Source of the DNA: Opisthorchis felineus
Taxonomy: Eukaryota > Platyhelminthes > Trematoda > Opisthorchiida > Opisthorchiidae
Assembly: GCA_004794785.1 (NCBI GenBank)
Contig: SJOL01008692.1
Span: 1,367,153-1,431,152 of the forward strand
Length of the DNA stretch: 64,000 nt
Direction of reading: 5' to 3'
Shown here: positions 12,780-62,160 of the stretch, one piece after another
How the letters are laid out: every line of letters begins with the position of its first letter
How positions within the stretch are numbered: the stretch's first letter is position 1
Position numbers and translations under genes: made by a program
Notes under the pieces: generated by a model
What the model saw: only the letters and a program-made list of their open reading frames with translations
Told to the model about the DNA's origin: nothing
Databases searched by the model: none

Positions 12780-13225
12780 TCATTGGCAAACCAGTTTGGT
12801 TTTGCGGGAGACTCACCTGGAACCCAGCCGAATCTCTTGATTATGATGTTTTTAAGCAACTGAATGTGCTGCACCAGGCCACCTCATGTTTCAGTTGGCA
12901 CGATATTCGAGATATCGCGATACATGTATAGACGTAATACACTACTCATAAGGTTGCTGAGAATTCCTCGACAGCCCACGACCGGTTTCGCCCTTCTTGG
13001 GGCTCTTCAGGTAGACGCAGTCCCCGAGTTTCCGTCAACCTCATGTTCTACTTGAACCCAAATTGCATGATTCTAGCGAAATGCACTTATCTGCACACCA
13101 CTTTAGTTTTGACGGGAGACTCACCTGGAACCCAGCCGAATCTCTTGATTATGATGTCTTTAAGCAACTGAATGTGCTGCACCAGGCTGCCTCATGTTTC
13201 AGTTGGCACGATATTCGAGAGTCTC
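12780..13225 (-). repeat. Hammerhead repeat, tandem head-to-tail units
   Basis: Two successive copies of the 5' half of the family unit occur in the same orientation. The marker ACTCACCTGG starts at 12811 and again at 13119, a 308-bp period. Between them is a complete ribozyme region (12970-13022) and the unit's 3' end (CCTTATGAGTAGTGTATTAC read on the minus strand, about 12960-12940). This is a one-and-a-half-unit tandem array, the arrangement expected of retrozymes and PLE terminal repeats. Confidence 0.75.
12970..13022 (-). ncRNA. Hammerhead ribozyme, core intact
   Basis: Minus strand: stem I strand GACTGCGTCTAC, core CTGAAGAG (13010-13003; the variable base is A), stem II GCCC/GGGC, GAAAC, stem III ACCGGT, then the cleavage triplet GTC with the cut predicted between 12980 and 12979, followed by GTGGG, which pairs back to the stem I strand. 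All invariant residues are present. The only notable change is the permitted variable base in CTGANGA. Confidence 0.75.
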
Positions 13226-13352
13226 CCACAAAACCAAATTGGTTTGGAAATGAGTGTATTTCGGGGACTGCATCTCCCTGATGAGCCCCAAGAAAGGCGA
13301 AACCGGTCGTGGGCTGTCGAAGAATTTTCAGCAACCTTATGAGTAGTGTATT
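13218..13352 (+). repeat. Hammerhead repeat, inverted partial copy
   Basis: A plus-sense copy abuts the minus-sense tandem array. It starts at GAGTCTCCCACAAAACC, jumps with an internal deletion of about 55 bp from the TGTATTTCG segment to GGGGACTG, and continues through an intact ribozyme core to the 3' end TTATGAGTAGTGTATT. Confidence 0.75.
13266..13318 (+). ncRNA. Hammerhead ribozyme, core intact, weak stem I
   Basis: CTGATGAG at 13278-13285, stem II GCC/GGC, GAAAC at 13299-13303, ACCGGTC with cleavage predicted after 13308, then GTGGGCTGTC. The catalytic core is complete, but the 5' stem I strand (GCATCTCC) pairs poorly with GTGGG, so activity is uncertain. Confidence 0.65.
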
Positions 13353-13720
13353 AGACCGTTTCATATTATGCTTCAGATTTCCGTCAAGAATGTCTCCGCG
13401 CAATGCCCTTCTTTCCACGATTATGTCGGTGAGCTCCAGGAAACTTCTAATACCAGACGTACTGTTTGATGTAGTGTGAACTTTTACTTTCACCAAGACG
13501 TTATCCTGAATGAGTGACGGGCAACCCCTGACTGTGCGACCTACTATTTGGAGTAGCTCTACTTCCGAGTCAGGCCCAGTCTTTCAGGTCACCTTCAGCA
13601 AGCAAAAAAACTCATCTTCGTCCAACACATCTTCTGGTAAACGAAACGGCCTTCCTCCTGTTTCGGTGTGCCATTCTCAGGAGAATACTCCCTGGCGAAA
13701 CTTCCATCTCCGAATGTTCT
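13350..13720 (-). pseudogene. Degraded protein-coding relic, family unknown
   Basis: One minus-strand frame reads through about 120 codons with protein-like composition, broken only by two in-frame TGA codons (13679-13677 and 13586-13584) that are 31 codons apart. Recognisable stretches include RPFRLPEDVLDEDEFFCLLK and VELLQIVGRTVRGC. Both stops could have arisen by CGA-to-TGA or TGG-to-TGA change. The frame runs into the hammerhead repeat at 13350. It may be an old retroelement ORF or a processed gene fragment; I could not name it. The serine-rich ORF on the opposite strand (13510-13722) looks less like protein. Confidence 0.3.
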
Positions 13721-14762
13721 AACAACTATTTTTCTCATATAACACGAATGAATAAATTAAGCTCGCTGTTAGTAATAACTATTACACTACATCGAACGAG
13801 CTGACAACAGAAGTAGCCAACTTTTCGCACTTTTTGACACAAAAACCCCATAAGCTGTCAGCTGAAGTGCTTCACTCGTCTTCAATCGATTCGGTTATTG
13901 GAGCTCCTTAAAAGTGCATTGCTAAAGTAAACATGGTCAGTAAGTTTTAAAGTGGCTAACTCACTAAGACAGTTCACCGTTAGCCATTTTAAGCCCTTCC
14001 TGACCACATTGTGGTTCAGAAATGCTTCACCACGTGTGATTCCATCTTTCAGATTGAATAATTAAGCAACTAGGCACGACGTGATGTCTCGGAACGAGCC
14101 ACATACCATTGGAGTTGCTTTGATAAACAAACACAGCATTCCAGGGTCATAACCAGGCTCGTTTATTTTCACCACTGAATGATTGAAGGAGCGTGTGCAA
14201 CAGCGCGGGTTGTGTTCATGAGGGTTGACTTCGGGGGATCTAACGAGTCTGTAAGTTTCGGAATGATTAAATGTAAGCTGATATCCGCGAATCTGTAACG
14301 ACCTTGTTGGGAAATGCGTGGTTGGTTGCCCTTGTGAGTACTTCGGTATCGGACCACAGAACTGTTCCACCGACTTCAGTGAGTTGGTCATAGATTAAGC
14401 TCACTGATTCATTTCTCGCTGAGAAAGGTGCTGTTCTGGATACCCTTATCGAAGTGGTGTAACCAGAGGGAGAGGAAACATGTGACATGGAGGATGTGTA
14501 GGAAACCTGGATGCTGGTGGTACAATCAGGCACTTCTCAGGATGGGATACCTGTGACTGATGCTGTTATACGATGGTCGACTTCAGTGTTGCCTGTGCTG
14601 GCAGCTTAGATCTGCGTTATTTGGTTGAATTCTTGGAGATGCTGGGTAGCCTCAAGTCACTTGACTTCCCCCCTTATCTCTTTTCATTGCGGCGATTGCT
14701 GAAGTAAACGATCCGCTGTGACATCCACGCAACATGGCATCACTGACGACTCTGGTTTTTGT

Positions 14763-15112
14763 GGTAGTATGTGGTCTCGTCCTGTCAGTGAGGCCAATCT
14801 ATGCTGAAAAGCCGAGAAGCGCAGTGCGGCTGTTTCATCCGTATTAGGAATCCTCAGCAGTGTGTATCTCACGGGACTCAAAGGGTTTCGAACCCGTGAC
14901 CTCCCGACTAATAGTTTGAACGCTTAACCGTTTGGACACGAGCGACTGACCAGCAGTGTGATTAACCCGCACTTAGACAGGATACAGCGCCGCTCATCGT
15001 TCACTCACGGGATCCACATCACGTGGTCACACTTGTTGACTGGCTCCTCAAGCAACCAATTCTCACATGGGAGTTTCACTCACCTTGTGAAATCATTCTT
15101 CCTCTGAGCGTA
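14763..15112 (-). repeat. tRNA-like SINE, family B
   Basis: Minus strand: upstream region (CTTGAGGAGCCAGTCAACAA, GTGTGACCACGTGATG), CCTGTCTAAGTGCGGGTTAA, tRNA-like head GTCCAAACGGTTAAGCGTTC with B box GTCACGGGTTCGAAACCC, then the body ending CTTTTCAGCATAGATTGGCC. Among the most complete copies. Confidence 0.7.
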
Positions 15113-15136
15113 GTATGAAATCTGGTAATTTCCAAT

Positions 15137-20536: not shown

Positions 20537-20579
20537 CTGAAAAAGGAGGTGAAGTGCCCAGTGAACGAGAATCTAACAG

Positions 20580-20960
20580 TACTCATAAGGTTGCTGAAAA
20601 TTCTTCGACAGCCCACGACCGGTTTCGCCCTTCTTGGGGCTCATCAGGTAGGCGCAGTCCCCGAGTTTCCGTCAAACTTATGTTCTACTTGAAACCAAAT
20701 TGCACGAAATTAGCGAAATACACTCATTTGCAAACAAATTTGGTTTTGCGAGAGACTCACCTGGAACCCAGCTGAATCTCTCGTTTGTGATGTTTCCAGA
20801 CCACAACGTATCGCGATAACTCGAATATCGTAGCAACTGAGACCTGAGGTGGCCTGGTGCAGCACATTCAGTTGCCTGGAGACATCACAAACGAGGGATT
20901 CAGCTGGGTTCCAGGTGAGCCTCTCGCAAAACCGAATTTGTTTGCAAATGAGTGTATTTC
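20580..20960 (-). mobile_element. Hammerhead repeat, foldback insertion with 15-bp target duplication
   Basis: The plus strand begins with the reverse complement of the unit's 3' end (ACTCATAAGG...) and includes a perfect ribozyme. It reaches the unit's middle at about 20795, then switches at about 20810 to a sense copy of the 5' half (TATCGCGATA... to TGTATTTC). The composite is flanked by the perfect direct repeat CGAGAATCTAACAGT at 20566-20580 and 20960-20974. A target-site duplication of this length plus a 5' inversion indicates target-primed reverse transcription. The insertion lies in the SALL intron, about 45 bp from the exon that starts at 20536. Confidence 0.8.
20607..20659 (-). ncRNA. 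Hammerhead ribozyme, consensus-perfect copy
   Basis: Minus strand: GACTGCGCCTAC, CTGATGAG (20647-20640), stem II GCCC-CAAGAA-GGGC, GAAAC, ACCGGTC with cleavage predicted between 20617 and 20616, then GTGGGCTGTC. CCTAC pairs with GTGGG to close stem I. The stem III sequence ACCGGT is self-complementary with no loop, so a single molecule cannot form a normal hairpin there. Cleavage would be expected mainly from a dimeric ribozyme, as reported for short-stem-III hammerheads in PLEs. Confidence 0.85.
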
Positions 20961-21061
20961 GAGAATCTAACAGTTTTGATCTGAATTCATTAACATTTAT
21001 GTCTATCTGTTTACACAGGACATAAACTCTGTTGGATTTTGTGTCTCGTGACCTTTTCGGC

Positions 21062-23769: not shown

Positions 23770-23965
23770 ATGGAACACGCTACTAAAAATGTTATTGAAA
23801 ACTATTCGACAATGTATGACCGGTTTTGTTCCTCTTTGGGCGAGATTATCATGTAGGCAGAGTCCCAGAGTTTCGTTCAACTTTATTTTCTACCTGAACA
23901 ACAAATTTTACGTAGTCCACAAGGCAAGTTGGTATTGGAGACTCAACTGAATCGCTCGTTTGGGA
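23770..23965 (-). repeat. Hammerhead repeat, old degraded copy
   Basis: The order of family segments is retained (3' end near 23780, GACCGGTTTTG at about 23818, GAGTCCCAGAG at about 23860, GAGACTCAACTG near 23938), but the core is broken (ATGATAAT for CTGATGAG, ACAAAAC for CGAAAC). The ribozyme should be inactive. Confidence 0.6.
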
Positions 23966-26139
23966 CCTTCTCGAGCTTAATTTACGGATGAGTGTAGTTC
24001 TCATTTCAACATAAAAAGGTATAGATCACGGGAACCTTTTGAATCAACTGTCTATTCACGAAACCAAGTTGTTACGAGTAGGTGATCAAAGCTTTTGTCA
24101 CCTCAGTGACCTTGGGACTTACGGAAGCTCAACTAAAAGTTGATGACTTCTCAGTAACCTTTTGAGTAGTAGTATACAAAAGTCGATGGAAATTACAAGT
24201 TGTACGTAATGCACAAAATATTCGATAAGATGTGTTTGGTCATAGTGTGTGGTGTCAAGATCCAGTGTGCGGAAGGTCTTCATCACAGGTGTGTTGTTCT
24301 GAGCAGACAAAACAATTGAGAGACACCACAAAACCTACACACTCCAAGAACGGATTACATCCGATTTTTTTGTAGTTCGTGAAAAACCACGTCATAATAG
24401 CGCACCACCAGGGGTTGTGGATTTAGGTGGAGTGGATTTTAAGGGGTTATAATTTTGACGACGCTATGAAACTGATAAATTAAGCATTCGATAAATTAGA
24501 GGGGAGTGGGTCGGAACATTATTCACAGAAAGTTTAGCATGTTTTACCCGGGGTCAACCAGCTGACCTTCTTTCATTCACCAAGTGAAGTTTCGTTTTTT
24601 TTCGCTTGACGATTTGCTTCACCGTAAGTTATCAACGAGCGACACGCAAGTATGCATGCGGTGATTTTGGTAGATTGCTCAAACTGTCACTTTCAGGCGA
24701 TGCCAAAACTTTTGGAGCTGCGTTTCTCAATCTGAACGGATTCCGAACTGAGCTTTCACAGGTGAATTCGACCTCCGAGGCCACCAATTTCAGGCCTCTT
24801 TCACCTTATCCCTAAAACAATTACAGTAGAAAAACTAACTGAAAGTTAGCAACACTTTCAGGTATAGTCGTACCTTTCGAGTCGCCGAAGTAGGGGACAG
24901 CTTTCATCTGTTTATTGCGCACTGAGTAATAGAATCGAAATCCACTGGTTACAGCACTTGCTGGAAACCGTTCGAAGCATGTTTGTCAGGAGTGCTGAGG
25001 TGAGTTTCACAACTTAGCTCTGAAATGTGTTCAAACTATTCTATGCTCGGTGCTAGAACGCTTGTCCTTATTGTCCATGCTGCTCACTTTCTCGATCCAG
25101 CTTTCAGACAGAAACGCCTCCGATCACTTTCCGAACAGGTTATTACCCAACAACAGGCATGAGAATCGTCAATAACTGACAACCCACTGACCTCTCGTCA
25201 GACGTTCAAACTTCAGAGGATTGCCGAATACTGCAAAAGTTTAAGCCAACAGTAATACGGTTGCACATCCGACAGTTTAGTCCACTGATTAGCGATGTGC
25301 TCCCACTTATCAGAGTTTAAATTCAAGACCTATGGCGCATAATATATATGCCGTGAAGGCAATGACACGAAGTCAGTGCGCCGTTTGGGATGGACCAGAG
25401 TGATCAATTGTTTACAACAGGAACACTAATTAACCAAATCGTATTACATGGCTGCAATGTGTACCAAAGCTACTTGGAACTGGCACAGTGCTTGGGCTTA
25501 AGATTCGGTCTCAGAACTTAGATCAATGTTCTAGAAGTCTGGTTTATCTGTGAGAAAGTTAATTTATAGTTGACTACTTCTGACAAATGATCAGCAACTC
25601 TACCACGAGGGATGGACGAGATGAAATGTGTCCGCTTAGAGACGAAGGAAACTTAAGCATGCATTTCAAGCAGCGGAACTATACTACTTACATTTTCTAC
25701 ATTAAATTATATCTTAACCAAGCAATCACTTTGTTTCAAACGGGGCGTGGTGAACGTCGCAAATTGTGCACATCTGAACTGATGAGTGATTTTGGATGAA
25801 CTTGGTGAAATCGAAGATTCCAATTAGTATTGTTTCAGAGAGGTTTAGTAAACAATCAGTGGATTTGTTTACCAAACTTTTCTGAAACAATGACTACTCA
25901 ATCGGTCTCAAATATCCTCCAACTGATTCCGATTAGTACTTATAAGCAACCCTATTTTAACCCTGGTGACAAGTGCCAAATGGAACAGCATTACGCAATG
26001 GTTGATAAATCAGATATTTTGTCGTTGCAACCACTCGATTCGAATGGTCTCGTACCAGCAGGCTATTCAGGAAGGCAACAACCTCCATCCGCTCACCGTT
26101 CCTCTTGTTGACAGGATTTTATCAAACACTGTACATCCA

Positions 26140-26215
26140 TTAGTGAAGTACACTCATTTGCATACTAATTTGGTTTTAATGAGAGACTCAGGTGAATCCA
26201 AGTTGAATCTCTCGT
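26140..26215 (-). repeat. Hammerhead repeat, 5'-half fragment
   Basis: Reverse complement of the TGTATTTC to GAGAGATTCAG segment of the unit, with about 15% substitutions by eye. It faces the sense copies at 26250-26510, forming another inverted pair. Confidence 0.6.
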
Positions 26216-26249
26216 GAATGTGCGACACATTCGCTTGTAGAATATCACA

Positions 26250-26510
26250 TTCAGTTGAGTCCCCCGTTAAAACCGAGTCCGTGTGTAAATGAGTGTAGTT
26301 CGCGAATTCCGTGCAATCTGAAGTTGGGGGACCACGCGTACCTGATGAACGCCAAAATGGGTGAAACTGGTCGTCGAAGAGTTTTCAGTAAACGTTTAAG
26401 TAGTATGTCCCGTCGGTAGGCGAGTGCGCCTTCCTGCTGAGCCAGAAGAAAGGCGAAACCGGTCGTGGGCTGTCAAAGAATTTTCAGCAACCTTGTGAGT
26501 AGTGTTCCGT
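26250..26510 (+). repeat. Hammerhead repeat, two successive ribozyme regions
   Basis: A sense copy carries CTGATGA at 26342 with GAAACTGGTC (core letters retained, weak stem I). A second ribozyme region follows 92 bp later (CTGCTGAG at 26434-26441, GAAACCGGTCGTGGG). The second has the invariant A of CTGANGA changed to C and should be dead. Both end in the family's 3' sequence TTTTCAG..ACC/ACG..AGTAGT. Confidence 0.65.
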
Positions 26511-34249: not shown

Positions 34250-35345
34250 ACGTGTTTCACTTGATCAGTTCCATGTCGAACAGATGAGTATCGAGTTGTC
34301 CGACCAACTCAGCTTGCGGAACACTAGTAAACAAATGAATACATAATCGTAGAAGACTAGTGAACCGGACCCTTATCCTGAGTGCCTGTGTTGAGCACCT
34401 GATCACTGCTAAAGTGGTTCCTTCAGTGAGCGCCATCAGGTGTTTTCTGATTGGAAGCATTAGTGTCCGCTTGACTGTTTCAGAAGTACTGCCGGTTCTG
34501 AATGGTATCTACGAGAAGAACGGGCTTCTGACTTTCTGTTGTACGGGATCTTCTCAAATATTTTACTTCAAACTTCTCCATGTGTCCATCTTCCGTCTGG
34601 GTTCTCGATATGGATACCAACTCTGCATTCAGTGCATCATCCGTGTTTCCTAGACACCTAAAAAAATCAGGTTTGTACTTCATGCCCACAAGTTGTGGAA
34701 CTGTGTGTAGTGGGTGGACTAGGTTGACTTCCAGTATATCTGTCGCTGCCGTCTTGTCTCCTAGCCAATGCAGCATCAAGAAACTGAAAGATGTTGTCGA
34801 TTTTCTACTTCGCGGTGAGGTGGGTTGCCGAAGGTACCGTATTAAACTATTCAGAGTTGCCCAAACGTAACACACTACTCACAAGGTTGCTGAAAATTCT
34901 TGGACCGCGGACCTTCATAAATGAGAGATTCGGCTGGATTTATTTGAGTATCTTGTCGAAACCAAATTCGTGTGCGAATGTGGGCATCTGTCGTATTCAG
35001 AGTTCCCTTGATTACACTGTAACACTGTGAAAATGTCGTCGACACGGCCTTGATGAATTATGAACTGTTCAGAGTTTGGTTTCAAAACGCCATGTTCATT
35101 TGTACCCACGAAACTAGTGGCTAAAAGCGGGCAAAGGGGAGAAGCCATGGGAACTTTATAGACAAGATCATTGATAAAGAACTGTTTTAAATGTATAATA
35201 CAAAAAAGCGGATCCTTTCAGTCCATAAGGGAAACGGTAAACTCATGCTGGATCACACAATGAGATTGTAGAAGCAGTCAATCGTTTCGCGCAAGGACGC
35301 ATTGGTAAAAAGAGACAGAAACTCTGTAATTAATTTTTCTTGTGT
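34250..35345 (-). mobile_element. Penelope-like element relic (reverse transcriptase fragment)
   Basis: Read on the minus strand in shifting frames, the order of motifs is that of a PLE reverse transcriptase. A segment like SLFTNASLRETIDCF comes near 35325. KVPMASPLCPLLATSFVG (family form GVPMGSPL.P.LA) is at about 35160-35105, and RVDDIF in place of YVDD at about 35055. Then FQFLDAALARRQDGS (family FLDVLLTRR.DGS) lies near 34790, and DDALNAELVSISRT with KYLRRS near 34615-34545. In-frame stops and frameshifts make it non-functional. Hammerhead-family sequence at about 34866-34995 interrupts it between the catalytic motif and the FLD motif. PLEs are retroelements whose terminal repeats are known to contain hammerhead ribozymes, which makes this a plausible relative of the autonomous partner of the short repeats around it. 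Confidence 0.7.
34866..34995. repeat. Hammerhead repeat fragments inside the PLE relic
   Basis: A minus-sense 3' end (CACTACTCACAAGGTTGCTG) joins a diverged plus-sense 5' half (CATAAATGAGAGATTCGGCTG, GTCGAAACCAAATTCGTGTG) without the ribozyme. It separates two parts of the reverse-transcriptase relic, so it was inserted after, or rearranged within, that element. Confidence 0.6.
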
Positions 35346-35690
35346 TAACAGTCAACAGCCGGTTTTGAAGAGTTTTCAGAAATGTTATGAGTAGTGTTTT
35401 TTCCAGAAACTATACTGCGATATTTTGAATATCGTACCAACTGAAACAGGAGACAGCCTGTTGCAGCAAATCAAGCTGAAAAAATCATAGCCGAGAGATT
35501 CAGGTGAGTAACCCGTGAAAATTAAGTTGAGTGAGTGTATTTGCCGAATTTCGTGCAATCTGGGTTCAACTAGAGGAAGGACTGCGCCTACCTGATGAGT
35601 CTGGGGAAGGGCGAAACCGGTCGGGGGTTGCCGAAGAGTTTCCGGCAAAATTATGGATAGTTTACTTTCAGCTTGAAAAAAATGCTTTGG
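35345..35690 (+). repeat. Hammerhead repeat, tandem sense units
   Basis: A unit 3' end (TTTTCAGAAATGTTATGAGTA near 35375) is followed directly by a nearly full unit (TGCGATATTTTGAATATCG near 35416 through the ribozyme at 35580-35632 to TTATGGATAGT near 35652), about 266 bp from end to end. It is a head-to-tail arrangement abutting the PLE relic. Confidence 0.7.
35580..35632 (+). ncRNA. Hammerhead ribozyme, core intact
   Basis: GACTGCGCCTAC, CTGATGAG at 35592-35599, stem II GTCT/GGGC (with G-U pairs), GAAACCGGTC with cleavage predicted after 35622, then GGGGGTTGCC. All invariant residues are present; stem I has one mismatch. Confidence 0.7.
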
Positions 35691-35788
35691 TACATTTTGA
35701 TGTCCCTGATTTAAAAGTGCAACTTATCGGGCGTGGAAGTCACAGAATTCGTGCACTGAAGTAGACAAGTAAAGAAACTGACTACGCT

Positions 35789-35895
35789 AGCGAAATACAC
35801 TCATTTGCAAACAAATTTGGTTTTGCGAGAGACTCACCTGGGACCCAGCTGAATCTCTCGTCGAAGAATTTTCAGCAACCTTATGAGTAGTGTAC
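35789..35895. repeat. Hammerhead repeat, foldback mini-copy
   Basis: A minus-sense 5'-half segment (GAAATACACTCATTTGC to GAATCTCTCG) is fused at about 35862 to the plus-sense 3' end (TCGAAGAATTTTCAGCAACC to GTAGTGTA). The ribozyme core is absent. Confidence 0.65.
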
Positions 35896-36069
35896 TACGT
35901 CTATAAACTGACTGCGCGTTGGACAAATTCTCACCTGAACCCCACTGTGATATGCATATCAATGTGCACATCATCCTATGCGTATATTTTGACGACCAGT
36001 GTAGTCGTCTTGCTAATTATAAATGTATGATTACTCCAGACCCCATGGAGAGTTCCGTATGGAGATTGG

Positions 36070-36480
36070 TCACAAATTAGACGGAAACATACCACTCGTA
36101 AAGTTGCTGAAAACCTTTCGAAATCACACGAACGGTTACACCCTTCGTTGTGCTCATCACGTGGGGACAGTCCCCGAGTTGCCGTCAACCTGAACCTAAA
36201 TTGTACGCAGTTCGCCAAATCCTCTCACACTTATTTGGTTTTGACACAGGACTCTTTTATGATATTCTTCAACTGAATATGCTGCATGGGACCGCCTCAT
36301 GTTTCAGCTAGTACACTACTCGGCAGATCGCAATACACTACTCAAAGATAGCGTACTCTTCAGGAGGTTGCTTAAAACTCTTCCACAACGGTTTCGCCCT
36401 TCTTGAGGCTCATCAGATGGGTGAAGTCCCTGAGTTTCACTCAGCCAAATTGCATGCAGTTCGCGAACTGCACCCATTTG
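36070..36480 (-). repeat. Hammerhead repeat, minus-sense tandem array
   Basis: Two ribozyme regions lie in the same orientation, 257 bp apart (CTCATCAC at 36152 and CTCATCAG at 36409), with a 5' half between them (36235-36320). The first is dead (GTGATGAG, GTAAC). The second keeps CTGATGAG and GAAAC but has lost the GGTC cleavage site (ACCGTTGTGG). Confidence 0.65.
36383..36432 (-). ncRNA. Hammerhead ribozyme, cleavage site lost
   Basis: CTGATGAG, stem II GCCTC/GGGC and GAAAC are retained, but a small deletion replaces CGGTCGTGGG with CGTTGTGG, removing stem III and the normal cleavage triplet. Confidence 0.55.
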
Positions 36481-36482
36481 CA

Positions 36483-36720
36483 TCTGATAAGCCTAAAGGA
36501 GGGTAAAACCGGTGGTGGGCTGAGAAGTCTTCTCAGCAACCCTGTGAGTATTGTGTTCCGACGAGAAAACGTACGGCGATTTCTCGTATCAACTGAAACA
36601 TTAGGTTAATCTATGCAGCACTTTCAACTAAAGAGGAAAATCACAAAGGATATTTTTAGATGGAATTAATTTGAATCCATTGTTGAAACCAAACTGGTTT
36701 CAGAGGAATGTATTTCACGA
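36483..36720 (+). repeat. Hammerhead repeat, sense remnant
   Basis: A decayed sense ribozyme (CTGATAAG, GTAAAACCGGTGGTGGG) and 3' end are followed by a decayed 5' half (CAACTGAAACATTAGG... GAAACCAAACTGG...GAATGTATTTC). It faces the preceding minus-sense array. Confidence 0.55.
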
Positions 36721-37715: not shown

Positions 37716-37823
37716 AGAGATTCATCTAATTTTGCCTCCTGTCTATGCAATTCAACAAATCATTAGCACCTTTCACGTCAAGAATCAATCGGTTTTTCGT
37801 GACAATGCTCGACGAAAACATCA
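37716..37823 (+). repeat. Direct repeat, left copy
   Basis: AGAGATTCATCT...GCAATTCAACAAATCATTAG... to GACGAAAACATCA. A diverged second copy follows the hammerhead element at 38024-38098. Confidence 0.5.
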
Positions 37824-38023
37824 TAAACGAGAGATTCAGCTGGGTTCTAGGTGAGTCTCTCGCAAAACCAAATTTGTTTGCAAATGAGTGTATTTTGCTA
37901 ATTTCGTGCAATTTGGGTTCAAGTAGAACATAAAGTTGACGGACTGCGGTTACCTCCTGATGAGCCCCAAGAAGGGAGAAACCGGTCGTGGTCTGTCGAA
38001 GAATTTTCAACAACCTTAAGAGT
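37805..38023 (+). repeat. Hammerhead repeat, sense copy
   Basis: Runs from CGAAAACATCATAAACGAGA through GCAAAACCAAATTTGTTTGC and the ribozyme to CAACCTTAAGAGTA; about 90% like the consensus by eye. The first about 70 bp of the unit are missing. Flanked by a long diverged direct repeat (37716-37823 and 38024-38098). Confidence 0.75.
37942..37997 (+). ncRNA. Hammerhead ribozyme, near-intact
   Basis: CTGATGAG at 37957-37964, stem II GCCC/GGGA (the closing G-C pair is changed to G-A), GAAAC at 37978-37982, GGTC with cleavage predicted after 37987. The G-A change next to the core and a shifted stem I probably weaken it. Confidence 0.65.
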
Positions 38024-38098
38024 AGAGATTCACCTTCCGTCTGTGCAATTCAACGAAAAATTAGCACGTTTAGTGACAGTTCTCGATGAAAATATCAG
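38024..38098 (+). repeat. Direct repeat, right copy
   Basis: AGAGATTCACCTTCCGTCTG, GCAATTCAACGAAAAATTAG, then TTCTCGATGAAAATATCAG matches the left copy with small indels and a gap of about 30 bp. Confidence 0.5.
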
Positions 38099-43040: not shown

Positions 43041-45483
43041 GAAACTGAACATTTTATCGGTGTCATTTTCGATGATATGGATAGTCACGTTCCTTCTGAT
43101 CATGACTGTTATACGCTTGCTCTTCACGGGAGCGAATTCTTCGGGGAGTGGTGTCCAATATCGCCTGTTTTATGACATCCTACAAAGTCCTCGATGAACT
43201 TGCAATCCAACTACACCTTGGAATAGAAAGTCGATGCAGGAAACGCGAGCGTATTGATTCAGGATTGATGAAATTCTCTCATATGTTGTAACTGTAGAGT
43301 TTGATTTTCGAATTTATTTGGCGGAAGTAATTGGCAACCGAACGATTCTTCGATTCTCCCTCACTTATTGATACAACAACATCTGCGCAGAACTTTCAAG
43401 ATGGGGATCAACAGCCATTTTGTAGGCATCCACACAAGTATTCGAAGCCAGAAGTTTACATTGTTAACAAATGAGATGTCCAAGCTCGGTATCTTAAAAT
43501 AACTTACACTTGATTACTTTTGTAAACGAAAAATCAGTAGAACAGAGCCCTGCCGTCGGTTTGACGAGGGTTCAGCCTCAGTTCATTCAAACAGCGATAT
43601 CGGTAGACTTTTTGGGAGGGGGGAATGGACTGGTATTGTAAACATGTTGCAGTAAAATCAAGCGGGATTGCGATTTTTGCGTGAATTTTGTTTGTTAAGA
43701 TACTCCTCTTCAAAGACAGGGGCTACCGCGGATATCAAAATACCTTCTCGACCAGGGTGTTGCTTTGTGCAAGGAAGGTTGACTAAAGAATGCACTACAC
43801 ATTTTTGCGCCAGCCTGACGTGCGATAGAATTCCTCCTGGAGTGGAAGAGTCAGCAGTGAGACTTACTGATACGTGGCAGTTGGCTAACTTGAGCCAGAG
43901 TGAGCTGAACTCAAAGGGCAAAATTACCACAGCTATGCGGCAAAAAGTCAACAAAAGTCTAGCTGCCGTCTAACTGCTCCATCGTTAGCGTCAAACCGTA
44001 ATCCAGTCGCTAATTGTTCGCGCGTCGGATGTATTACAGGCTAAACTGTGCTCAAACCATTCGAAGATGGAAGTACAATTCACGAGTAGCTAGCATAAGG
44101 CGTCCTCACTGTGGTAGGAGAACAACAGCTTGGGGATCCAGTTTTAGGGGATGTCTTCCACCAGGGGAGAGGGGAGCTTTTCGATGAAAGTAGTTCCTTT
44201 TCGGAGGTTTCCTTGTCGGACAAAATACTGCAAATCGCGGTTGCTGTTGAGAAATTAGCATTGTACTTCAAATGGAATATCTAAACCACGTCCTTACACA
44301 CAGGTAAGTCCGTTCTACTTCAAAGTACCTTGGTGCTTAGACAAGACAGTCTGCCCTGAAAAATCAACTATGTTATCTCTTTTACCTTCATCTCCGGTCC
44401 GGACACGGTGGCTGTTGCTTTCATTTCTTGTTTGGACAATTTGTACAGTGATGGTGGTGTTGAGCGCAACACCCAAATCATCAAATGCTGGCGGGTGTCA
44501 CTCATCCCATCCCAGATTGATCTAATCCGTCGGTTGTTAAAGTAGAAAACAAGACCCCCAAAGGTGTCATGTCATGTGTTGCTTGCTTAAGGCCAGTGAG
44601 ATTACAGGGCTCAGAAGGAGGACGGGGGTGGGGGTGGGGTGGATCCTCAAATTATTTCACATCCACCGTCTGATGAATATTTACATTTTTCCTACCGGCG
44701 AAAGGGAGAGGTGAAATCAAGTTGAGTTTGATTTATGGCCTAGAGTCACGTAACCAAAAATTTCGACAAGGGATTGATTTGGCTTGTCACAAACCTGATG
44801 ACCTGTTGATGGTGTGTGTTTTCACAAGCCGCCTGATTTCACAACATTAATGATGTATGAAAAAAGTGGCGAGAAAGGCAACGCTTTCGTTAGGGCCGAT
44901 AAGTTTGATGCATTTTTCGTGGTTAGTCTTGGACGGGTTGATGTTGATCAGACAAACACAAGTTCTCGGGATAAGTTAGCATATACGGAGTTACACCAAG
45001 CTTTCAGTCACACAGCCGAAAGTTGAACTTTTAAAAACACAGTGTATGGAGTAAGATATTAGAGTCTCATGTTCATATAAATAAGAACTTGGTTTCCAAC
45101 CGAAGTTCAACCAGATATCTGACTTAGCAAATTCTTTAACTAGACGTGACTTACAAAGGTGGCCTCAAGCTTGATTTGGAAAAATATTCCAGACATTGAT
45201 GTGCGTCTCAGCACTACTCACATATGGTCGATAAAAAAACTCCGGACAACCCCCTACCAGTGTGGCGACTGTTGGAGCCTGTTGGAATCAGTCCCCGAAT
45301 TTCAATCCATCCTATGTCATAGTTGAGCACCAAATTTTATGCAAACTGGCATGCATCCACAGCACATCAAGCATGACATCAAGCAAGATAGCTGAATCTC
45401 CGGTTAATGCCAAGGTGAGTATTTATAACCGCATACGTACAATTTGGTATTCCAATATTTTATAATATTGGCGTAACTTTGGA

Positions 45484-45570
45484 AACTAAACTTATCTGAT
45501 GAACCCCAAGAAGGGCGAATCTGGTAGTCGGCTGTGAGTAGTTTTTACTGACCTTATAAGTAGGAGAATG
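45484..45570 (+). repeat. Hammerhead repeat, 3' fragment
   Basis: CTGATGAACCCCAAGAAGGG at 45496 matches the family, but GAAAC has become GAATC and the cleavage triplet is lost. It ends with the degraded 3' end ACCTTATAAGTAG. Confidence 0.6.
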
Positions 45571-46267: not shown

Positions 46268-46385
46268 GTGCCAATACACTCATCTGCATACCGATTCGGT
46301 TTTCACGATAGACTCAACTGGAACCTAGCTGAATCTCTTGTTTATGGTGTTCTTCTTTCAGTAACCTTCTGAGTAGTGCATTAGG
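46268..46385. repeat. Hammerhead repeat, foldback mini-copy
   Basis: A minus-sense 5' half (AATACACTCATCTGC to GAATCTCTTG) joins a plus-sense 3' end (TTTCAGTAACCTTCTGAGTAG). Same fusion type as 35789-35895, with no ribozyme core. Confidence 0.6.
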
Positions 46386-48170
46386 ACTAGGCAGTTGTAG
46401 GTGCTGTTCAAAACTTTTCCTTTTCTACCATCCATCTGACGGAATTACTCCTACAACGGAATAAGACTGGCAAATACTGTCATTGATCGTCCTGCTGCGA
46501 ATTGTGTCTTATTTGAATCAACTCACGTGGGCACGTCACACCTCCGCCCACACGCGGATCACCATTTGATTATACATCACCTCATTCCACAGCTGATAAT
46601 TAACTACTGTTGTGGACTCAACGCATGTGTTTCGAAAGTCGATTGTTCACTCAAAAACTCCTAGTTCCAACGAGCAAAGACAATTGACCACGAGGGATAA
46701 CGCGTATCATTATCGCATTCGTAGGGGGGGGGGTTGTCAGTCCAAGTCCTATAGGTCGGGACTTGATCTTCCAGAGGTGCTGTATCGGTGCAGATGACGT
46801 GTGCGTGATTAGCTGGCCATCTTAGTTGAAAAGGAAGCGACTGACTAAAAGTCTCGGGAACGTGGCTGGCATCTCAGTCGAAAACATATGGTTGGTTCAT
46901 CGTTAAATTCCAAAGCTGTTGAAACCATCAATTGTGGCCTGGGTGAACTAACTTTCCGGTCGATAAATTTCGTGCCTTGATTTGCGGCCCCGGTAAATAA
47001 AAAATACAGCCTAATCTTCCCATGCATGAATTGTGCATAATAGCCTGTTCAGTCTCAGGTGAAATACGGCCTACTGTGTGCTGAAGGAACGAGCTTGTCT
47101 CAGGACACATGAAGCTTCAACGCAGGAATTCTATCTCACAGATGCTAGTGAGCTTAACGCGCCGACTGGCCGCGCTTTGATCCCACTGGGAATTTACATC
47201 GGTCAATCGATAAAACCTCATGCAGTTCCAATAATTAATTTGACAGGTTTAAATTACAACTTGTAATCATTAGACTATTTGGTGGCCTTGCCACCGAGAT
47301 GGACTACCCACCTCTGAGTCGATGTGCTTCAGTAAACATCGGCTCAGCAACTTCCTCTTGATTGTTGCGTGTTGATCAACTTGCCTTTTACTTATCCCTG
47401 TGGCATGTGGATAAGTGCCAAATATTTGGGCTGCCTGAACTAGATTTTAGGTGTCAGCGGGAGGTGAAATCAACCACGCACAATCTCTAATCGTTCATCA
47501 CAGGTGTTATCGCGATCTAATCCATCTCGTTGTCATGGTTACACATGCTTATCACAAAGTTTGGTAAACTCTTCCGCGTGAGGGCTTTTCTACGCGTGTT
47601 TAATCATCAGAAGAAAGGCTTCATTGATTAGTACTCTGGGAGCAAATTAAACAGGGAGTTTGGGCTATCACGAATGGAGGGAGGACTGACCGAATCCACA
47701 AGAGTGAAGACGAATTCTCCTACCTGGAACAGCAATGCATTCCTGGCGACGACCAATTCGTTTGTGTTCGCAACGAAAAGCCGCTTGAATATTCGCTTTA
47801 AATAATGACTCGGCTTCATCCATCCAGGGCCTGCTAAGTTGTAGGTGCCAGCCGGTTCGGGGTCAGCTAGCTTTCTGAAGCAATTCCCTTGTTGTCCAGC
47901 TCAACCGAGAGCACACTCCAAAAGTTTGCCCCCACCTACACATGAATTTGTACAAACTCAGACGTGACGGTTGCATAATAGTTCTGTCCAGAAGCGGATG
48001 ACGTAATATCACATGAAGCCTACTGTGTTCTTCATATTTGCTTTGACAAAAAATAGTTTTTAGCTTGTAAAGAAGGGGGGAATGAGTTCGATCATTCTGA
48101 TCGTGGTCTTGTCACGTGTAAACACCCCGTAATCCGCTTATCTTCCACTGAATACGGTTCGCAATCTGAT

Positions 48171-51199: not shown

Positions 51200-51545
51200 A
51201 TCAATCGAAATTCACCTGAGTTCTTCAACTGAATGCGTTGCACAAATTCCACTCCATGTTTCCAGTTGGAACGATATTCAAGATATGGAAGTTTCCAGAA
51301 ACACTACTCATAACGTCGGTTTCGCCCTTCTTGAGGCTTACCAGGTTGGCCTAGTTCCAGAAGAGAGTGTGTGTGCTGAATTTCAGCTGAATCTCCTGTC
51401 AGTATTGACTGAAATTGCAGGTGAGCGATTATCGTGACAGATGCGCAAATTAGTGTTCAAGTAAGAAATAAGCTTGATGGAAATTTGGAGACGAGGCCTA
51501 CCTGATTAGTCCCATGAAGATCGAAACAGGTATTATGTATTCCAA
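51200..51545. repeat. Hammerhead repeats, decayed pair
   Basis: A minus-sense 5' half and ribozyme region (51205-51360; GTTTCGCCCTTCTTGAGGCT is present but CTGATGAG has become CTGGTAAG) is followed by a plus-sense ribozyme remnant near 51500 (CTGATTAG, CGAAACAGG). Neither is likely to be active. Confidence 0.5.
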
Positions 51546-54821: not shown

Positions 54822-55003
54822 GAGCCCGAGATAGCTCAGTGGTTAAGGGATGAACTTATTGAGCGGAAAGCCCGTGGTTCGAACCTAACCCCGACGTCTC
54901 GACTTCTCCTGTCTGGGTTCGGACAACCTGGTAGGACGTCAGCCCTCGTGCTTCTTTCGTGCGGCATGGCAGCTAGACACCGAAAGAATTTTCAAGCTAA
55001 ACG
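54822..55003 (+). repeat. tRNA-derived SINE, family A
   Basis: One of the best-preserved heads in the window: GAGATAGCTCAGTGGTTAAG and CGTGGTTCGAACCTAACC, then the common body to GACACCGAAAGAATTTTCAA. Confidence 0.8.
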
Positions 55004-55449
55004 ACTGCAATGTCATTATTGTCAGGCAGAATCCCCCTGATCCTAAAATAACGAATGAAACACTTTTAGACCATCGACCACTTGTTATCTGATGTTGTAG
55101 CCGGCGGATGACCTGAACAAGTTACCTCCAAGTTGAAGAAAAACTACGATTAGGAATTAGGCGGTGTTACTCGACGAGATTGATTAATCGACTACAGATT
55201 ATCACTACGGTTTAACGGGTCTTCATCCTAGCCTAGATGCTTCGATGTTTTCGTGAGTATTGCTTACTCCCTATTCTTGTCGTGGAATTGAGCGGTTCAG
55301 TGATGGTTATTTGCCGATCAGATTGTTCTTTTTCTTGCGAGTAGTTCTAACTTGTGTTCAGTAGAAGTGAATTTTTATTACAAGTCGGGTTACAGCAGAC
55401 ATTTCGGTTGAAGACAGACCAAGTGAAAACAGGTAGAAAACTGTCTATG

Positions 55450-55735
55450 TCGTAATACACAACTCGTAAGGTTGCTAAAAATTCTTCCACAGCCCACGAT
55501 CGGTTTCGCCCTTCTCCGGCCTCATCAGATAGGCGCAGTTCCCGAGTTTCCGTCAACCTGCTTGAACCTACTTGTACCAACTAGAATCCGAATTGCACGA
55601 AATTAGCGAAATGCACTCATTTGCTTGAAAATTTGTGCATTTCGGCCTGGTGCAACACATTCAGTCGCTTGAAAACATTATAAACGAGAGATTCAGCTGG
55701 GTCCCAGATATGTCTCTCAAAAAAGCCCATGTTTT
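55450..55735 (-). repeat. Hammerhead repeat, foldback copy
   Basis: The minus-sense 3' part and ribozyme (55451-55635) are joined to a plus-sense 5' half (GGCCTGGTGCAACACATTCA to GGGTCCCAGATATGTCTC, 55655-55735), the same geometry as the SALL-intron insertion at 20580-20960. Confidence 0.7.
55488..55541 (-). ncRNA. Hammerhead ribozyme, core intact with AUC cleavage triplet
   Basis: Minus strand: GAACTGCGCCTAT, CTGATGAG (55528-55521), stem II GGCC/GGGC, GAAAC, then CGATC, so the cleavage triplet is ATC (allowed NUH), with the cut predicted between 55498 and 55497, followed by GTGGGCTGTG. The G-to-A change breaks one stem III pair. Confidence 0.65.
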
Positions 55736-57675
55736 ATTATGTTTCGCTTTGAACTAGGGCTGAATCATCTTGCCGCACTTTGTTCAAGATATTTGGGTCC
55801 ATTTATTGAAGAAGAGCGAAGCTAATTTCCTTTTCTCTCTCTCCTAAACTTGAAGAGTGATTTTTGTAAAGTTTCGCATTACCATAAAGTTGAGAAAGAC
55901 TCGAACATGTTTCCCCAGCGTCTTTATTGAGCGACATTTTTTCTCCGGAATTGTATGCATAGCGAGGTTACCAAGGCCCTAAGAGGTTCAAGATTACAGA
56001 AAGTCTGAACGAAATGAATTTTTCTGGCTCAAATAATGCTATGTGTTTAGTTCACCAAATTTCTTCAAGCAAACTTTATGCAAAACAATTATTTTTGAAG
56101 AGCTTTAACCACGTGGCATGGTGTGACAAACGTTCCTACTACTTTAAAAAAAATGTAAACCCAGATTTTGGATGATACTTGTCTGTTTAGAGTTTTGCAA
56201 TACATTAAAACTATCGATAACAGTTCGTGGCATGCGTTCATGTGTTTGACAACTTTTACTATGTGCGTTTACGAAATCAAATTGGTCACTCATTTTCTAG
56301 ACATCAGTATCAAGGACGTATATATGGGAATATGTGTTCAGATCTTAAACGCTTATGCACGCACGCACGCACCTAATGAATACTCTTCCGCTTCCAAATT
56401 GCAGATGAGTAGAGATTTTCTCTTAGTGCACGCTCGATTGCCAGCTTGAGTAGCTGTTATGGCAGATAGGATAAGGCAGTTAGTTGGAACAATGCTAGAC
56501 CCCAGAGCGTTTTTAAAGAATTGAACGTCACTCAGAATCAACCGAACGCATCGTATACGCACACGTGTGCGCACGCATGCATTCGAATGCCGACTCAGCT
56601 GCCGAGATGGTGAACCCTCACAGATGACTGAGCACATTCGTGAAGTAGTGGAAGCAATCTTAAGAGAAGCGTGATGTCCTTGAAAAATATCAGTGGATGT
56701 CCATAGGTGTAAATACAACTCAGTTCGAAAACGAACAAAAGTAATTGCGAAAGTCGTAATCTAACGAATAGAATTTTTCGTTGGATTACTACTAGTAATT
56801 AGTAGCATTCAAATGGCAAGTCACGTGCTTGAAACGTTTACGTACAGTCGCGTTCGTCCTCAGGAAAATGTGACTAGCCCGATGAGAAAAGTGACTCTTT
56901 CCCACATACAGATATGGTGTTTAGTTGGAAGACGAACACAGATGTTGAGATGTTTCTACCGTAGTGGTATATTCGAAGCAAGAAACGCGGGAACTGCACC
57001 AACCCGAGGGCCTCAAGAAGAGCAAAGCTGGTCGAGGGCTTTCGGACTTTTAAGTAAGCTTATGCGTACAGTGAACCATCAAGAAAGGCACTGAGTCAAT
57101 TTCAGTGGCTAAGTTTAAATGATTTAAATAACCTAGCTCTACTGGGCTTACCATGACGACCAGTGGCTCTTTAAAGCTTTTTAATTACACGTGCTTTTGT
57201 GGAGTATTTGAGTAGAAAACTGCCTTTAACTATAAGCGCAAAGAATAAACTCACTGTTCTGGTATGAACATATAGAAGTTCAGGAAATTGTGGAATTTTA
57301 CCGTTAGAACTCTCAGTCCTTATGTACAAATGTATCCGAATCGCGGAGGAATTCCCTCTCTGATGTCTGCGCTTATATTCCCTCCACTAGTTGTCCAGCG
57401 ATGAAACCTGCATGCGTTATCAAATCCTTTCTTGTCTGGCTAAGCTTTTTCAAGTGAAATCACATGACCTGGTTCTGATAGCAGGGAATTCAGAGTCAAG
57501 CTTTGTCTTCCACGCCATGCTGAGGGACACTGAAGATGGTTCAACACTATCTATAAAGTGCACGGAACATAGTAAAATACGTCCTTGCGGATTGCTATTT
57601 GATATACTGTTGGTCTTTTTCGCTATGCAGACATTCCGTCGGCATAGTTTGTCATTCGCTATACAGTTTGTCGCA

Positions 57676-57731
57676 TTATATCATATATATTATATCATAT
57701 ATGTATATATATATATTATATCATATATATG
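57676..57731. repeat. AT-rich microsatellite
   Basis: Imperfect TATATCATATAT repeats, about 55 bp, self-complementary. Confidence 0.85.
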
Positions 57732-57969: not shown

Positions 57970-58222
57970 GAGAGAACAAACTATTCATAAAAGTTGCTGG
58001 AAAGGTTTGACAAATAAAACATCAGGTTTAGGGAAACTCGGAGATTGTGCCTATCTGAAGGGCACTAAGAAGGGTGAAACTGGTAGTGGGATTTTGAAGG
58101 GTTTTCAGCAACCTGTTGAGAAGTGTTCTTTCAAGAAACTATCCTGCTACACCCCCAATATTATACCAACAAATTCGGTTGAAGAATACCAAAAACGAGA
58201 GATTCACCTGGGATTAGTCTAA
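57970..58222 (+). repeat. Hammerhead repeat, decayed sense tandem
   Basis: A ribozyme remnant (CTGAAGGGCACTAAGAAGGG at 58055, GAAACTGGT) and 3' end (TTTTCAGCAACCTGTTGAG) are followed by the next unit's 5' half (ATACCAACAAATTCGG..AAACGAGAGATTCACCTGGG), preserving head-to-tail order. Confidence 0.55.
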
Positions 58223-60110: not shown

Positions 60111-60377
60111 ATGTGCAGTGATGATGGTCCCAAACATGAATGTGAAAAGGTTCTTCAGGAATCTGAAAAGAAACCTTCACAAGAATGTTCCTCGTCCATC
60201 GTCTGGTTTGGTTGCTTAAACATTACAAGTGAACTACTCAGTAATGTAAGAGATTTTAGGCTAAAAGATGATGTTGAAAGGTTTGAAAATTACGGGGCAA
60301 AGGGTGGCAGATACCCAGAAGATCGGACGGCTTATCCAGATGGTTTGTTACCGCAGTTTGTGTGGGACTTCATGTGA
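60111..60377 (+). CDS. Possible short hydrophilic ORF
   Basis: An ATG-initiated 88-codon frame with charged, protein-like composition (CSDDGPKHECEKVLQESEKK, RFENYGAKGGRYPEDRTAYP). A donor-like AAT|GTAAGA lies inside at about 60246. No signal peptide, recognised domain or promoter. Confidence 0.25.
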   Translation: MCSDDGPKHECEKVLQESEKKPSQECSSSIVWFGCLNITSELLSNVRDFRLKDDVERFENYGAKGGRYPEDRTAYPDGLLPQFVWDFM

Positions 60378-61647
60378 CCACTGAGTGTTAGCACGAATAT
60401 TCAACAAAAATCTGTAATTGGCATCCTCATCGCAGCGGGCACCGTAACCTGTTGTACAACCATGCGAAGTAATTTCAAGAAGTCATTTATGTGTACTGAC
60501 GAAGGGATTGCCGGGGAGAAGGGACTTAGCACTAACCGACCACAAGTACTCAATGTGACTACATCTCCAACATTCAGTCAAACAGTTTGGGTAAAAAAAT
60601 GGCAACGAGAATACCACTTCTTGCAGTATCATAGGATGGTCACGTGAACTCTATCCTGGGAAGTGAATGGTGAATGCACATCTTGGTTGAAAATACGAGA
60701 ATCCTGATTGTCCGCATGGTAATTTGCAGGAGCAACTCGTCTGACAAGAAATGTTTGACGTTGCCTGCGAGTTTGATCTACCTTCAAAGTTACTTACCAA
60801 ATAGTGTCTGACTATGAATGATGTAGTAGACTCACGATGGGATGACCTCTCTTCAGAGGGTTAGTATATTTTTTGTATCTAAGTTCCATGTTTGAAACCT
60901 AGGGACTAGTATAGCAGAATTTCAGTAGTTATCATGGGCTGTTATGTGAGGCGAGTGAATCAGAAAACATTTTCGGTCGTATCATGTTTATTTGGATACA
61001 AATCGCTTCTATTCCAAGAAAAATCGGAAGCCAAGGGAATTCATACGACATGGAAACCCTTCGGAAAAATAACGAATTTTAAATAAATGTGTCTTCGAAC
61101 GTAACTGCTCAAACCCTGAATAACTGGCGGACGAATTAACTTGATAAAAGTTAGCGATATGCGAATATGTACATCGTATTTATTTAGGAGAATTATAGCG
61201 AGCTTGTTGTCTGGCAAATAACTTCGCGGTATCCTCTGGTCGTTCTCACGTTTCGTGGTCGACTAACGTTAATAGCAAGACCGAGCAACTCCTTTTCGTT
61301 GGGTGAAATTTTTCAACTTATGGAATTACTGGATAAACAATGGTTTTCTTCAGTGACCAACTGTGACTATGAGGGGATACTTGAAAGATTTGTGTATGGC
61401 TGCTCGAGCTATGACAGTTTCAGATGGGCTTAACTGTCCAGCAGGCAGCCTTAAGTCAGAGAGACGCTTAAAAAAAGTCCTAAATTGAAGGAATAGAAAG
61501 TAGGTTGTTTGGTGAACCTACGGAGGGCGTCCGGTTGCAAGATCGTATCATGGAATTCTAGTAATACGGTGTTTGTTTTTGAAAGGTGAGTAAACTCAGC
61601 ATACCATTGAGCCAAATTCTATTTTGCAGCTTTGAATACTATGTTTG

Positions 61648-61678
61648 CATGCATCGAATGTTCAAAAATCGATGCATG
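61648..61678. repeat. Perfect 10-bp inverted repeat
   Basis: CATGCATCGA at 61648-61657 and TCGATGCATG at 61669-61678, separated by 11 bp; can form a hairpin in either strand. No associated gene is seen. Confidence 0.7.
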
Positions 61679-61987
61679 TGGTTAAAGATCGAATATGATT
61701 ACAGAATCTAATCCAATGCATTTGTCTTCACATGACTGGGCAGAATTAATTTCTGGTTTAATGCGATGCCATTTATCGATCCAACATGGTGCACGTTCTG
61801 TGTTGTGGCCCAGAAACAATATTCAAGTTTTCATCAGTCACTGTAATTTCATCCCATGCCCTCCTCAAACAATCAGCTACTGATTTCCTAATTGGTCACA
61901 TGCTAAAGCAGGGTTCTTAGTTTGTGGGCAGGTCCAGACAAACTTGCCAAATATCGTGCCAAAACATAAACCGAAGCGAACAAAACC

Positions 61988-62160
61988 TTATGACGTAATA
62001 CACTACTCACAAGGTTGTATCGCGATATCTCGAATATCGTAGCAACGGAAACATGAGGCGACCTGGTGCAGCACATTCATTTGCTTAAAAACATCATAAA
62101 CGAGAGATTCAGCTAGGTTCCAGGTGAGTCTCCTACCAAACCAGATTGGTTTGCATGTTA
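61988..62160. repeat. Hammerhead repeat, foldback without ribozyme
   Basis: The minus-sense extreme 3' end (GACGTAATACACTACTCACA) is fused directly to a nearly complete plus-sense 5' half (TATCGCGATATCTCGAATAT to CCAGATTGGTTTGCATG). The ribozyme region is deleted. It is useful for defining the unit's two ends. Confidence 0.7.

Follow-up and report, generated by a model that had tools for sequence, protein, structure and literature searches.

The 64,000 nucleotides of Opisthorchis felineus analysed here (contig SJOL01008692.1, positions 1,367,153 to 1,431,152, in our numbering G000:C1369:1367153-1431152; hereafter the window) contain a dispersed family of short repeats that carry a type I hammerhead ribozyme motif, and many of its copies consist of two pieces joined head to head. 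As the reference unit we took 307 bp from a tandem array elsewhere in the genome (locus L009; 11.5 copies with a 307-bp period and 99% matches), numbered u1-u307 from the base after the predicted ribozyme cut, GGTC^GTGGG. This unit matches the window in 31 pieces that form 18 clusters (E<=1e-3), and it has 0 matches in the reversed window (E<=1e-4). Seventeen of the clusters lie inside 12,756-62,155, or 16 if the pieces at 51,226 and 51,445 are a single locus, which bears out the claim of a preliminary description that a ribozyme family of about 300 bp occupies at least fifteen loci in 50 kb. That description also had a unit of about 300 bp recurring throughout; the unit does recur, but most copies are partial units and many are joined head to head, an arrangement that it had not seen. 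The members of the family in the window are the following, with A and B denoting two classes of outer end that are defined below.

20581..20959, complete head-to-head insertion: minus piece 20577-20799 (u40 back to u125) and plus piece 20808-20961 (u57-u210), 98% and 94% identity; ends A and B
20566..20580 (left) and 20960..20974 (right), 15-bp target-site duplication CGAGAATCTAACAGT of this insertion, exact match
20598..20662, minus strand, best-scoring hammerhead of the window (RF02275), with ACCGGT as stem III; the cut is predicted to follow GGTC, between 20617 and 20616
34859..34993, complete head-to-head insertion between two copies of the 11-bp duplication TATTCAGAGTT (34848-34858, 34994-35004); AAAC on the left flank
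35784..35904, complete head-to-head insertion: minus 35790-35861, plus 35860-35905; 9-bp duplication AAACTGACT at 35775-35783 and 35905-35913
46272..46393, complete head-to-head insertion between two copies of the 11-bp duplication GTTGTAGGTGC (46261-46271, 46394-46404)
12756..13353, head-to-head composite: 464-nt minus piece (1.5 units; hammerhead 12973-13016) and plus pieces, one with a hammerhead at 13278-13308; no duplication of 9 bp or more
26139..26504, head-to-head composite of a minus piece at 26139-26215 with plus pieces at 26252-26504 that include two hammerhead-like copies
36091..36716, old head-to-head composite at 67% identity, with a minus-strand hammerhead match at 36432-36366
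55442..55724, head-to-head composite; hammerhead core 55503-55528 on the minus strand
10809..11028, old head-to-head composite, outside 12,756-62,155
37816..38025, plus strand, single-orientation piece from u129 to u38 with hammerhead
35367..35661, plus strand, single-orientation piece, 70% identity; hammerhead core 35592-35617 intact
23780..23907, minus strand, single-orientation decayed piece
45436..45563, plus strand, single-orientation decayed piece
51226..51531, decayed pieces: minus 51226-51361 and plus 51445-51531, counted as two clusters, with 83 bp between them
56982..57068, plus strand, single-orientation decayed piece
58004..58125, plus strand, single-orientation decayed piece with the degenerate core CTGAAGGG
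61984..62155, plus strand, single-orientation piece from u25 to u195, without hammerhead

In the assembled genome (630 Mb, 1,848 contigs) the exact 31-nt core occurs 2,327 times, compared with 0 in the control, and the loose core CTGATGAGN{4,30}GAAAC occurs 10,630 times, compared with 512 for the pattern read backwards. Within the window, CTGATGAGN{4,30}CGAAAC is found 5 times where 0.04 would be expected. Besides the L009 array, there are further same-strand neighbours among the exact cores, spaced 293-307 bp. Runs of N stand beside or inside copies, directly at L044 and, at L009, as judged from stretches that have no period-307 match, so that the unit counts of arrays in the assembly may be lower bounds. 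The guanine-plus-cytosine (GC) content of the unit is 46.6% and its longest stop-free frame, in three joined units, spans 66 codons, indicating that it is non-coding; its fold is more stable than those of shuffled sequences (z=-4.35), none of 100 shuffles being equally stable.

The motif runs in the order CCTAC-CTGATGA-GCCC-CAAGAA-GGGC-GAAA-CCGGTC-GTGGG, with a stem I of 5 pairs (CCTAC/GTGGG) and a stem II of 4 pairs (GCCC/GGGC), both present as had been described. The statement that every copy retaining its 3' region has the intact motif proved too strong, as CTGATGAG is replaced by CTGAAGAG in 12,941-13,032, by CTGCTGAG at 26,419 and by CTGAAGGG at 58,004. Stem III consists only of ACCGGT, a loopless palindrome that one copy can hardly close and through which two copies can pair together; judged from the sequence, cutting by this ribozyme probably needs two copies, that is, action as a dimer. 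At the Rfam gathering cut-off the window yields 0 matches. The best match below it, to RF02275 Hammerhead_HH9 at 20,662-20,598 on the minus strand, scores 36 bits against a cut-off of 52; it aligns end to end apart from gaps in outer stem I and at the stem III loop, and the absence of that loop accounts for some of the missing score. The family thus falls formally short of the covariance-model threshold, the check that had been proposed for it, while the match of its core to a hammerhead model has E=2e-5.

A second proposal, that the core should change more slowly than its flanks, fits the copies in the window as a whole: at 13 scored core sites 19/193 positions differ from the unit, as opposed to 347/2,201 outside the hammerhead (p=0.028). 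The margin is small, however, and is shared neither by stem II (22/120) nor by the stretch of loop II and stem III (21/147). No core conservation is seen in copies outside the search pattern (62/345 differing in the core, 387/2,321 in the near flanks), as expected for dead copies and for that selection. Two variants occur beside the common form. A stem II reading GCTC-TAATAA-GAGC, seen in the genome-wide listing, has changes relative to GCCC-CAAGAA-GGGC in either half of the stem and may belong to another subfamily, and stem III is found repeatedly as ACCGATC in place of ACCGGTC.

The structure of the insertions was surveyed in the window and in 45 fetched loci (L009-L053), 43 of which gave matches. 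These loci were drawn from the first 100 listed places with the hammerhead pattern, the last 20 being picked for well-kept cores, and because they were chosen by that pattern the sample is not random. Loci L001-L008 were left out of the counts; L009 was left out of the end and duplication counts only, being kept in the clusters and in the adjacency count. The survey gave 87 clusters, comprising 36 head to head, 47 in a single orientation, 2 minus-minus pairs, the L009 array and one minus-plus-minus cluster (L027, not included in the 36). Among adjacent pieces separated by at most 60 bp, the order minus-plus was found 37 times and plus-minus once, with 8 minus-minus (4 of them in the L009 array) and 5 plus-plus. 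Opposite-strand neighbours therefore lie head to head, the 3' ends of their RNA facing outward (37 to 1 over tail to tail, p=3e-10). Similarly, the first 100 exact cores listed included, within 1 kb, 7 divergent and 0 convergent opposite-strand neighbours, as counted by eye (one pair is in L037). The inner junctions (n=37) are irregular: 7 overlap by exactly 2 nt and 5 by a greater length, in the other 25 the pieces lie 1-46 nt apart, and part of the overlaps may result from chance extension of the alignments. They also vary among copies bounded by duplications, different parts of the unit being combined in opposite orientation.

The outer ends of these copies are far more regular. We classed ends falling in u26-62 as A and those in u195-220 as B. 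The outer 3' ends (n=122, without L009) comprise 62 A, 33 B and 27 others, while the inner 5' ends (n=124, without L009) comprise 12 A, 7 B and 105 others; outer ends are thus concentrated at A and B and inner ends are scattered. Both sites are internal to the unit and do not coincide with a shared linear 3' end. Among copies whose duplications measure at least 8 bp the ranges narrow to u31-u55 for A and u205-u217 for B, with exceptions at u25 (L020) and u12/u188 (L046). The 36 head-to-head clusters combine these ends as AB in 21, AA in 1, BB in 0, A with another end in 10, B with another end in 2 and two other ends in 2, so that AB makes up 21 of the 22 classed pairs, compared with an expected share of 0.5 (p=1e-5). 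In a predicted circular fold, both sites would be unpaired more than the average of 0.37 (0.51-0.71 at A, 0.59 at B). We also considered whether one cDNA (complementary DNA) stops at the start of the other, as L039 and L049 suggested; we abandoned this idea, since the 5' ends show no such enrichment.

With an exact match of at least 9 bp on the two sides of the insertion as the criterion, 19 insertions have target-site duplications, of 9-15 bp, and 15 of the 19 are head to head. Among head-to-head insertions the duplication was found in 9/11 at 90% identity or more, in 6/14 at 80-90% and in 0/11 below 80%; the figures for single-orientation clusters are 3/13, 0/14 and 1/22, and among control pairs of random points 6/400 reach 9 bp. 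In these head-to-head copies the two arms share one duplication of 9-15 bp, and they are the product of one event. A wider search for more distant duplications covered 23 clusters of at least 84% identity that had none of 9 bp or more. At L048 a 12-nt repeat stands 7 and 25 nt beyond the aligned ends, above the control maximum of 9, and was not counted; L045 and the piece at 37,816 in the window each gave 10 nt, within the controls, and the other clusters gave nothing clear. The flanks of L014 show a 13-bp duplication, which the duplication count above also found once its search was widened. Together with tandem and partial copies, these duplications are hallmarks of retrotransposition. The proposal that the family is non-autonomous, has expanded and bears a type I hammerhead was right.

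The flanks of the 19 insertions (38 sides), read toward the duplication, have A at positions -4, -3 and -2 on 23, 24 and 27 sides, where A makes up 28% of the window, and C at -1 on 17. In the first set AAC occurs on 13/30 flank sides, as opposed to a window background of 6.3% (p=1e-8). The target is symmetric, with AAAC/GTTT flanks. Because AAAC, duplication and insert follow one another in this order, priming would start from the 3' ends of the duplication. The break would leave 3' overhangs of ~13 nt, each strand being cut before GTTT, a polarity that we infer from this layout.

Pieces longer than 307 nt make up 20/138 of those in the window and the loci (4 of the 20 in L009), and three copies of 397, 483 and 394 nt (L012, L049, L051) stand within exact duplications of 11-13 bp. 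Such lengths imply a template that either had no end or held several units. With this in mind, we propose that the repeats are fluke retrozymes without long terminal repeats (non-LTR) that insert by two-ended, target-primed reverse transcription of circular or multimeric ribozyme RNA, a reading to which we give a probability of roughly 0.7. According to this model, tandem 307-bp units would be transcribed, and the hammerhead, probably as a dimer given that its stem III is only the palindrome ACCGGU, would cut the transcript to monomers that would probably be ligated into circles. A reverse transcriptase (RT) acting in trans, most likely from a Penelope-like element, would make the staggered break described above. 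Both 3' overhangs could then prime cDNA on the RNA, one at A (~u31-55) and one at B (~u205-217), sites that are about half-way round a 307-nt circle from one another. The cDNAs would grow toward each other and be joined, leaving head-to-head partial or multi-unit copies bounded by a single target-site duplication; a single-orientation copy would result if just one of the ends primed or survived. A more specific version, in which a single circle has a pair of dedicated start sites separated by about half its length, an enzyme of Penelope type acting as a dimer sets each of them on a 3' overhang and the cDNAs are made simultaneously, is offered tentatively, at a little under even odds.

That a Penelope-like enzyme moves the retrozyme is our best guess. 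Genes of this kind with RT and GIY-YIG parts exist in the genome (six GIY-YIG matches among the 150 of 553 candidates that were scored), with Penelope-like frames at L054 and L055 and relatives in O. viverrini and Clonorchis. L054 and L055 are decayed Penelope-like elements with RT and GIY-YIG frames, L054 running into an inverted Penelope fragment, and in neither of these decayed copies was a clear hammerhead of its own seen.

Several observations weigh against two-ended priming from a ribozyme circle as proposed here. Single-orientation clusters (27 plus and 20 minus of the 87) are at least as common as head-to-head ones, also at 90% identity or more (13 single-orientation, 11 head to head; 11/24), and at 80% or more only 3/27 of them have a duplication of 9 bp or more. 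For L053 (97%) and L043 (92%), both head to head, no duplication was found. At least one end falls outside A and B in 14/36 head-to-head clusters, and one further pair is AA. Preselection of the loci by their hammerhead favours A-ended pieces, yet it does not account for B as the partner. The two sites have only ATGAGT in common, a likeness reached by 411/1000 shuffles and not significant. Pieces longer than one unit are also expected from uncut multimeric RNA. No Penelope-like copy with matching ends or target was seen, and the target motif of PAc, the Penelope-like protein of Anolis compared below, is ATT, in contrast to the AAAC/GTTT flanks (PMC11167929). Covariation, too, is weak. In stem II the three inner pairs of 44 distinct 26-mers (12 of 89 strings, being of other length, were dropped) pair in 103/132 cases with a shuffled mean of 101.5, which is no excess. 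Of 55 hammerheads found, 53 (52 distinct) entered a pair count, one with N and one longer being left out; the distinct ones have 91.4% of cells paired compared with 90.7% in shuffles, mostly with one-sided changes, and 8/500 shuffles reach their covariation score. What carries the hammerhead claim is consequently the order of the motif, its core sequence and the number of copies, rather than covariation.

Twin priming as in long interspersed elements (LINEs) is known from LINE-1, where it yields 5' inversions with target duplications. Here, a LINE enzyme would act on linear multimeric transcripts, the second DNA end priming opportunistically inside the RNA. Multimeric RNA could yield the pieces of more than one unit, about half of the clusters are in a single orientation, and 10/37 inner junctions overlap by 2-4 nt, all of which this explanation accommodates. 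It predicts, however, that the outer ends on one side are scattered, whereas 21 of the 22 classed pairs have one A and one B, and A and B are internal to the unit instead of marking a common linear 3' end. We therefore regard twin priming by a LINE enzyme as unlikely, although it fares best among the alternatives.

A further alternative concerns the ribozyme rather than the insertion: the motif could be a fossil within a satellite or retrozyme that is mobile without cleavage. The loopless stem III, the weak covariation and the Rfam score below gathering speak for it, as does the report, in the available text, that hammerhead ribozyme mutants did not block insertion by PAc (PMC11167929). Against it stand the 2,327 exact cores with none in the control, some divergent copies of the window that keep the core better than the flanks (for example, 0/13 changed as opposed to 27/129 in 35,367-35,661), and the array of unit length; we give this possibility rather less weight than the preceding one. 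Still more doubtful is an origin of the pairs in separate insertions or later rearrangement, either as two nested insertions or as satellite arrays inverted afterwards. Some clusters do have gaps of 30-46 bp between the arms, and 10/25 head-to-head insertions of at least 80% identity have no duplication of 9 bp or more, but in the other 15/25 both arms stand inside one pair of 9-15 bp duplications, far above the controls, and the orientation is 37 to 1. A DNA transposon of the foldback or miniature inverted-repeat (MITE) type, with ACTCAT/ATGAGT ends as terminal inverted repeats, would explain the inverted ends and the fairly constant duplication length, but we consider it very improbable because the inner junctions vary from copy to copy in the duplication-bounded set, the end likeness is limited to 6 non-significant nucleotides, and single-orientation and multi-unit copies have the same ends.

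One insertion of the window has a gene for its neighbour. An open frame on the minus strand at 19,272-20,582 matches a spalt-like protein of Opisthorchis viverrini at 376/392 residues (96%), and the insertion at 20,581 starts ~44 nt (its duplication ~29 nt) upstream of the likely 3' splice acceptor of the spalt-like exon (20537-20581), as judged from the open frame and the O. viverrini match. Two other repeat families are present in the window. One, resembling a short interspersed element (SINE), lies at 21113-21309 and 42840-43037 and has a stretch like the B box of RNA polymerase III (Pol III) promoters followed by a hammerhead-like motif, CTGATGATTCCCAACAGGGACGAAA, at 21228-21252; in the second copy the motif is degenerate (42,954). 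We take this family, with its motifs at 21,228 and 42,954, to be reminiscent of schistosome Sm-alpha. The other is a tRNA-like SINE family, GGTAGCTCAGTGGTTAAG...GGTTCGAACC, at 12386-12479, 42440-42578 and 54821-54959 with 76-78% identity; ARAGORN called no tRNA in the window. Matches to MIR4208 (L049) and mir-297 (window) were rejected as below gathering scores, and the MIR4208 match spans an inverted pair.

How do these repeats compare with known systems? Sm-alpha, a SINE-like element of schistosomes with high copy number and Pol III boxes, carries a type I hammerhead. The 307-bp family has in common with it the fluke genome, the hammerhead type and the high copy number, and differs in that Sm-alpha, by its description, is SINE-like with Pol III boxes. 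The closest likeness is to the non-LTR retrozymes of animals, which, according to the main text of Cervera & de la Pena 2020, have a type I hammerhead in non-coding tandem repeats of ~170-400 bp with low GC, lack long terminal repeats, primer-binding site and polypurine tract, show duplications of more than 4 bp when present, and reach thousands of copies (PMC7229834). The fluke family shows a type I core with stems I and II in order, tandem repeats within ~150-450 bp, no coding capacity, GC below 50% and target-site duplications of more than 4 bp. Of the two labels given in the preliminary description, retrozyme or Penelope-like element, the former fits better, because the unit is short (307 bp, with 66 codons as its longest frame) and has no RT or GIY-YIG gene, such genes lying elsewhere in the genome. 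The family differs from animal retrozymes in its loopless palindromic stem III, in its head-to-head copies (36/87 clusters and 15/19 duplication-bounded insertions) and in its two preferred internal ends. The main text of that paper uses none of the terms inverted, head-to-head, twin priming and both strands, and it names schistosomes and not trematodes, Opisthorchis or Clonorchis (PMC7229834). Our search for hammerhead ribozymes in Opisthorchis retrieved no literature, its liver-fluke matches concerning schistosomes, and among the publications listed for retrozymes and Penelope-like elements no title or abstract on inverted retrozyme insertions was found, subscription journals being mostly outside the search.

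Weak or absent stem III loops are shared with the dimeric or minimal hammerheads of the newt satellite, axolotl retrozymes and minimal variants in Penelope-like elements, for which cleavage as dimers is reported or proposed in the text available (PMC7229834, PMC7761336). Host, unit sequence and insertion structure differ, and for the fluke copies dimer action is our deduction. As to insertion, the available text of Frangieh et al. 2024 describes purified PAc as a predicted dimer that cuts and extends both strands in vitro and starts copying inside the RNA at two adjacent sites non-homologous to the target (PMC11167929). PAc has a hammerhead in common with the fluke family, and its defined internal RT starts and its cutting and extension of both strands agree with what the structure of the fluke genomic copies would imply. 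Unlike the fluke unit, with its 66-codon frame and no RT or GIY-YIG gene, PAc encodes its own protein, and its start sites are adjacent, whereas roughly half a circle separates A from B; the same text reports in-vitro work and genomic tails, and head-to-head genomic pairs are not described in it (PMC11167929).

Circles were proposed as templates for the RT of autonomous elements by Cervera & de la Pena, who left the priming open (PMC7229834), and in the available text of the two papers the return of circular ribozyme RNA to DNA and the completion of Penelope-like insertion are left open as well (PMC7229834, PMC11167929). Thousands of genomic copies record the start sites, target site, duplication length and junctions, so that the mechanism becomes readable statistically from genomes. 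If the more specific version of our model is true, they form an in-vivo genomic record of dual-priming retrotransposition and a possible answer to how an endless template becomes an insertion. By our comparison the family adds a new member to a kind already known, and its record of head-to-head, two-site insertion is apparently undescribed for retrozymes in the literature searched; should the A/B rule hold in mussels, corals or axolotls, it would be a general rule for retrozymes.

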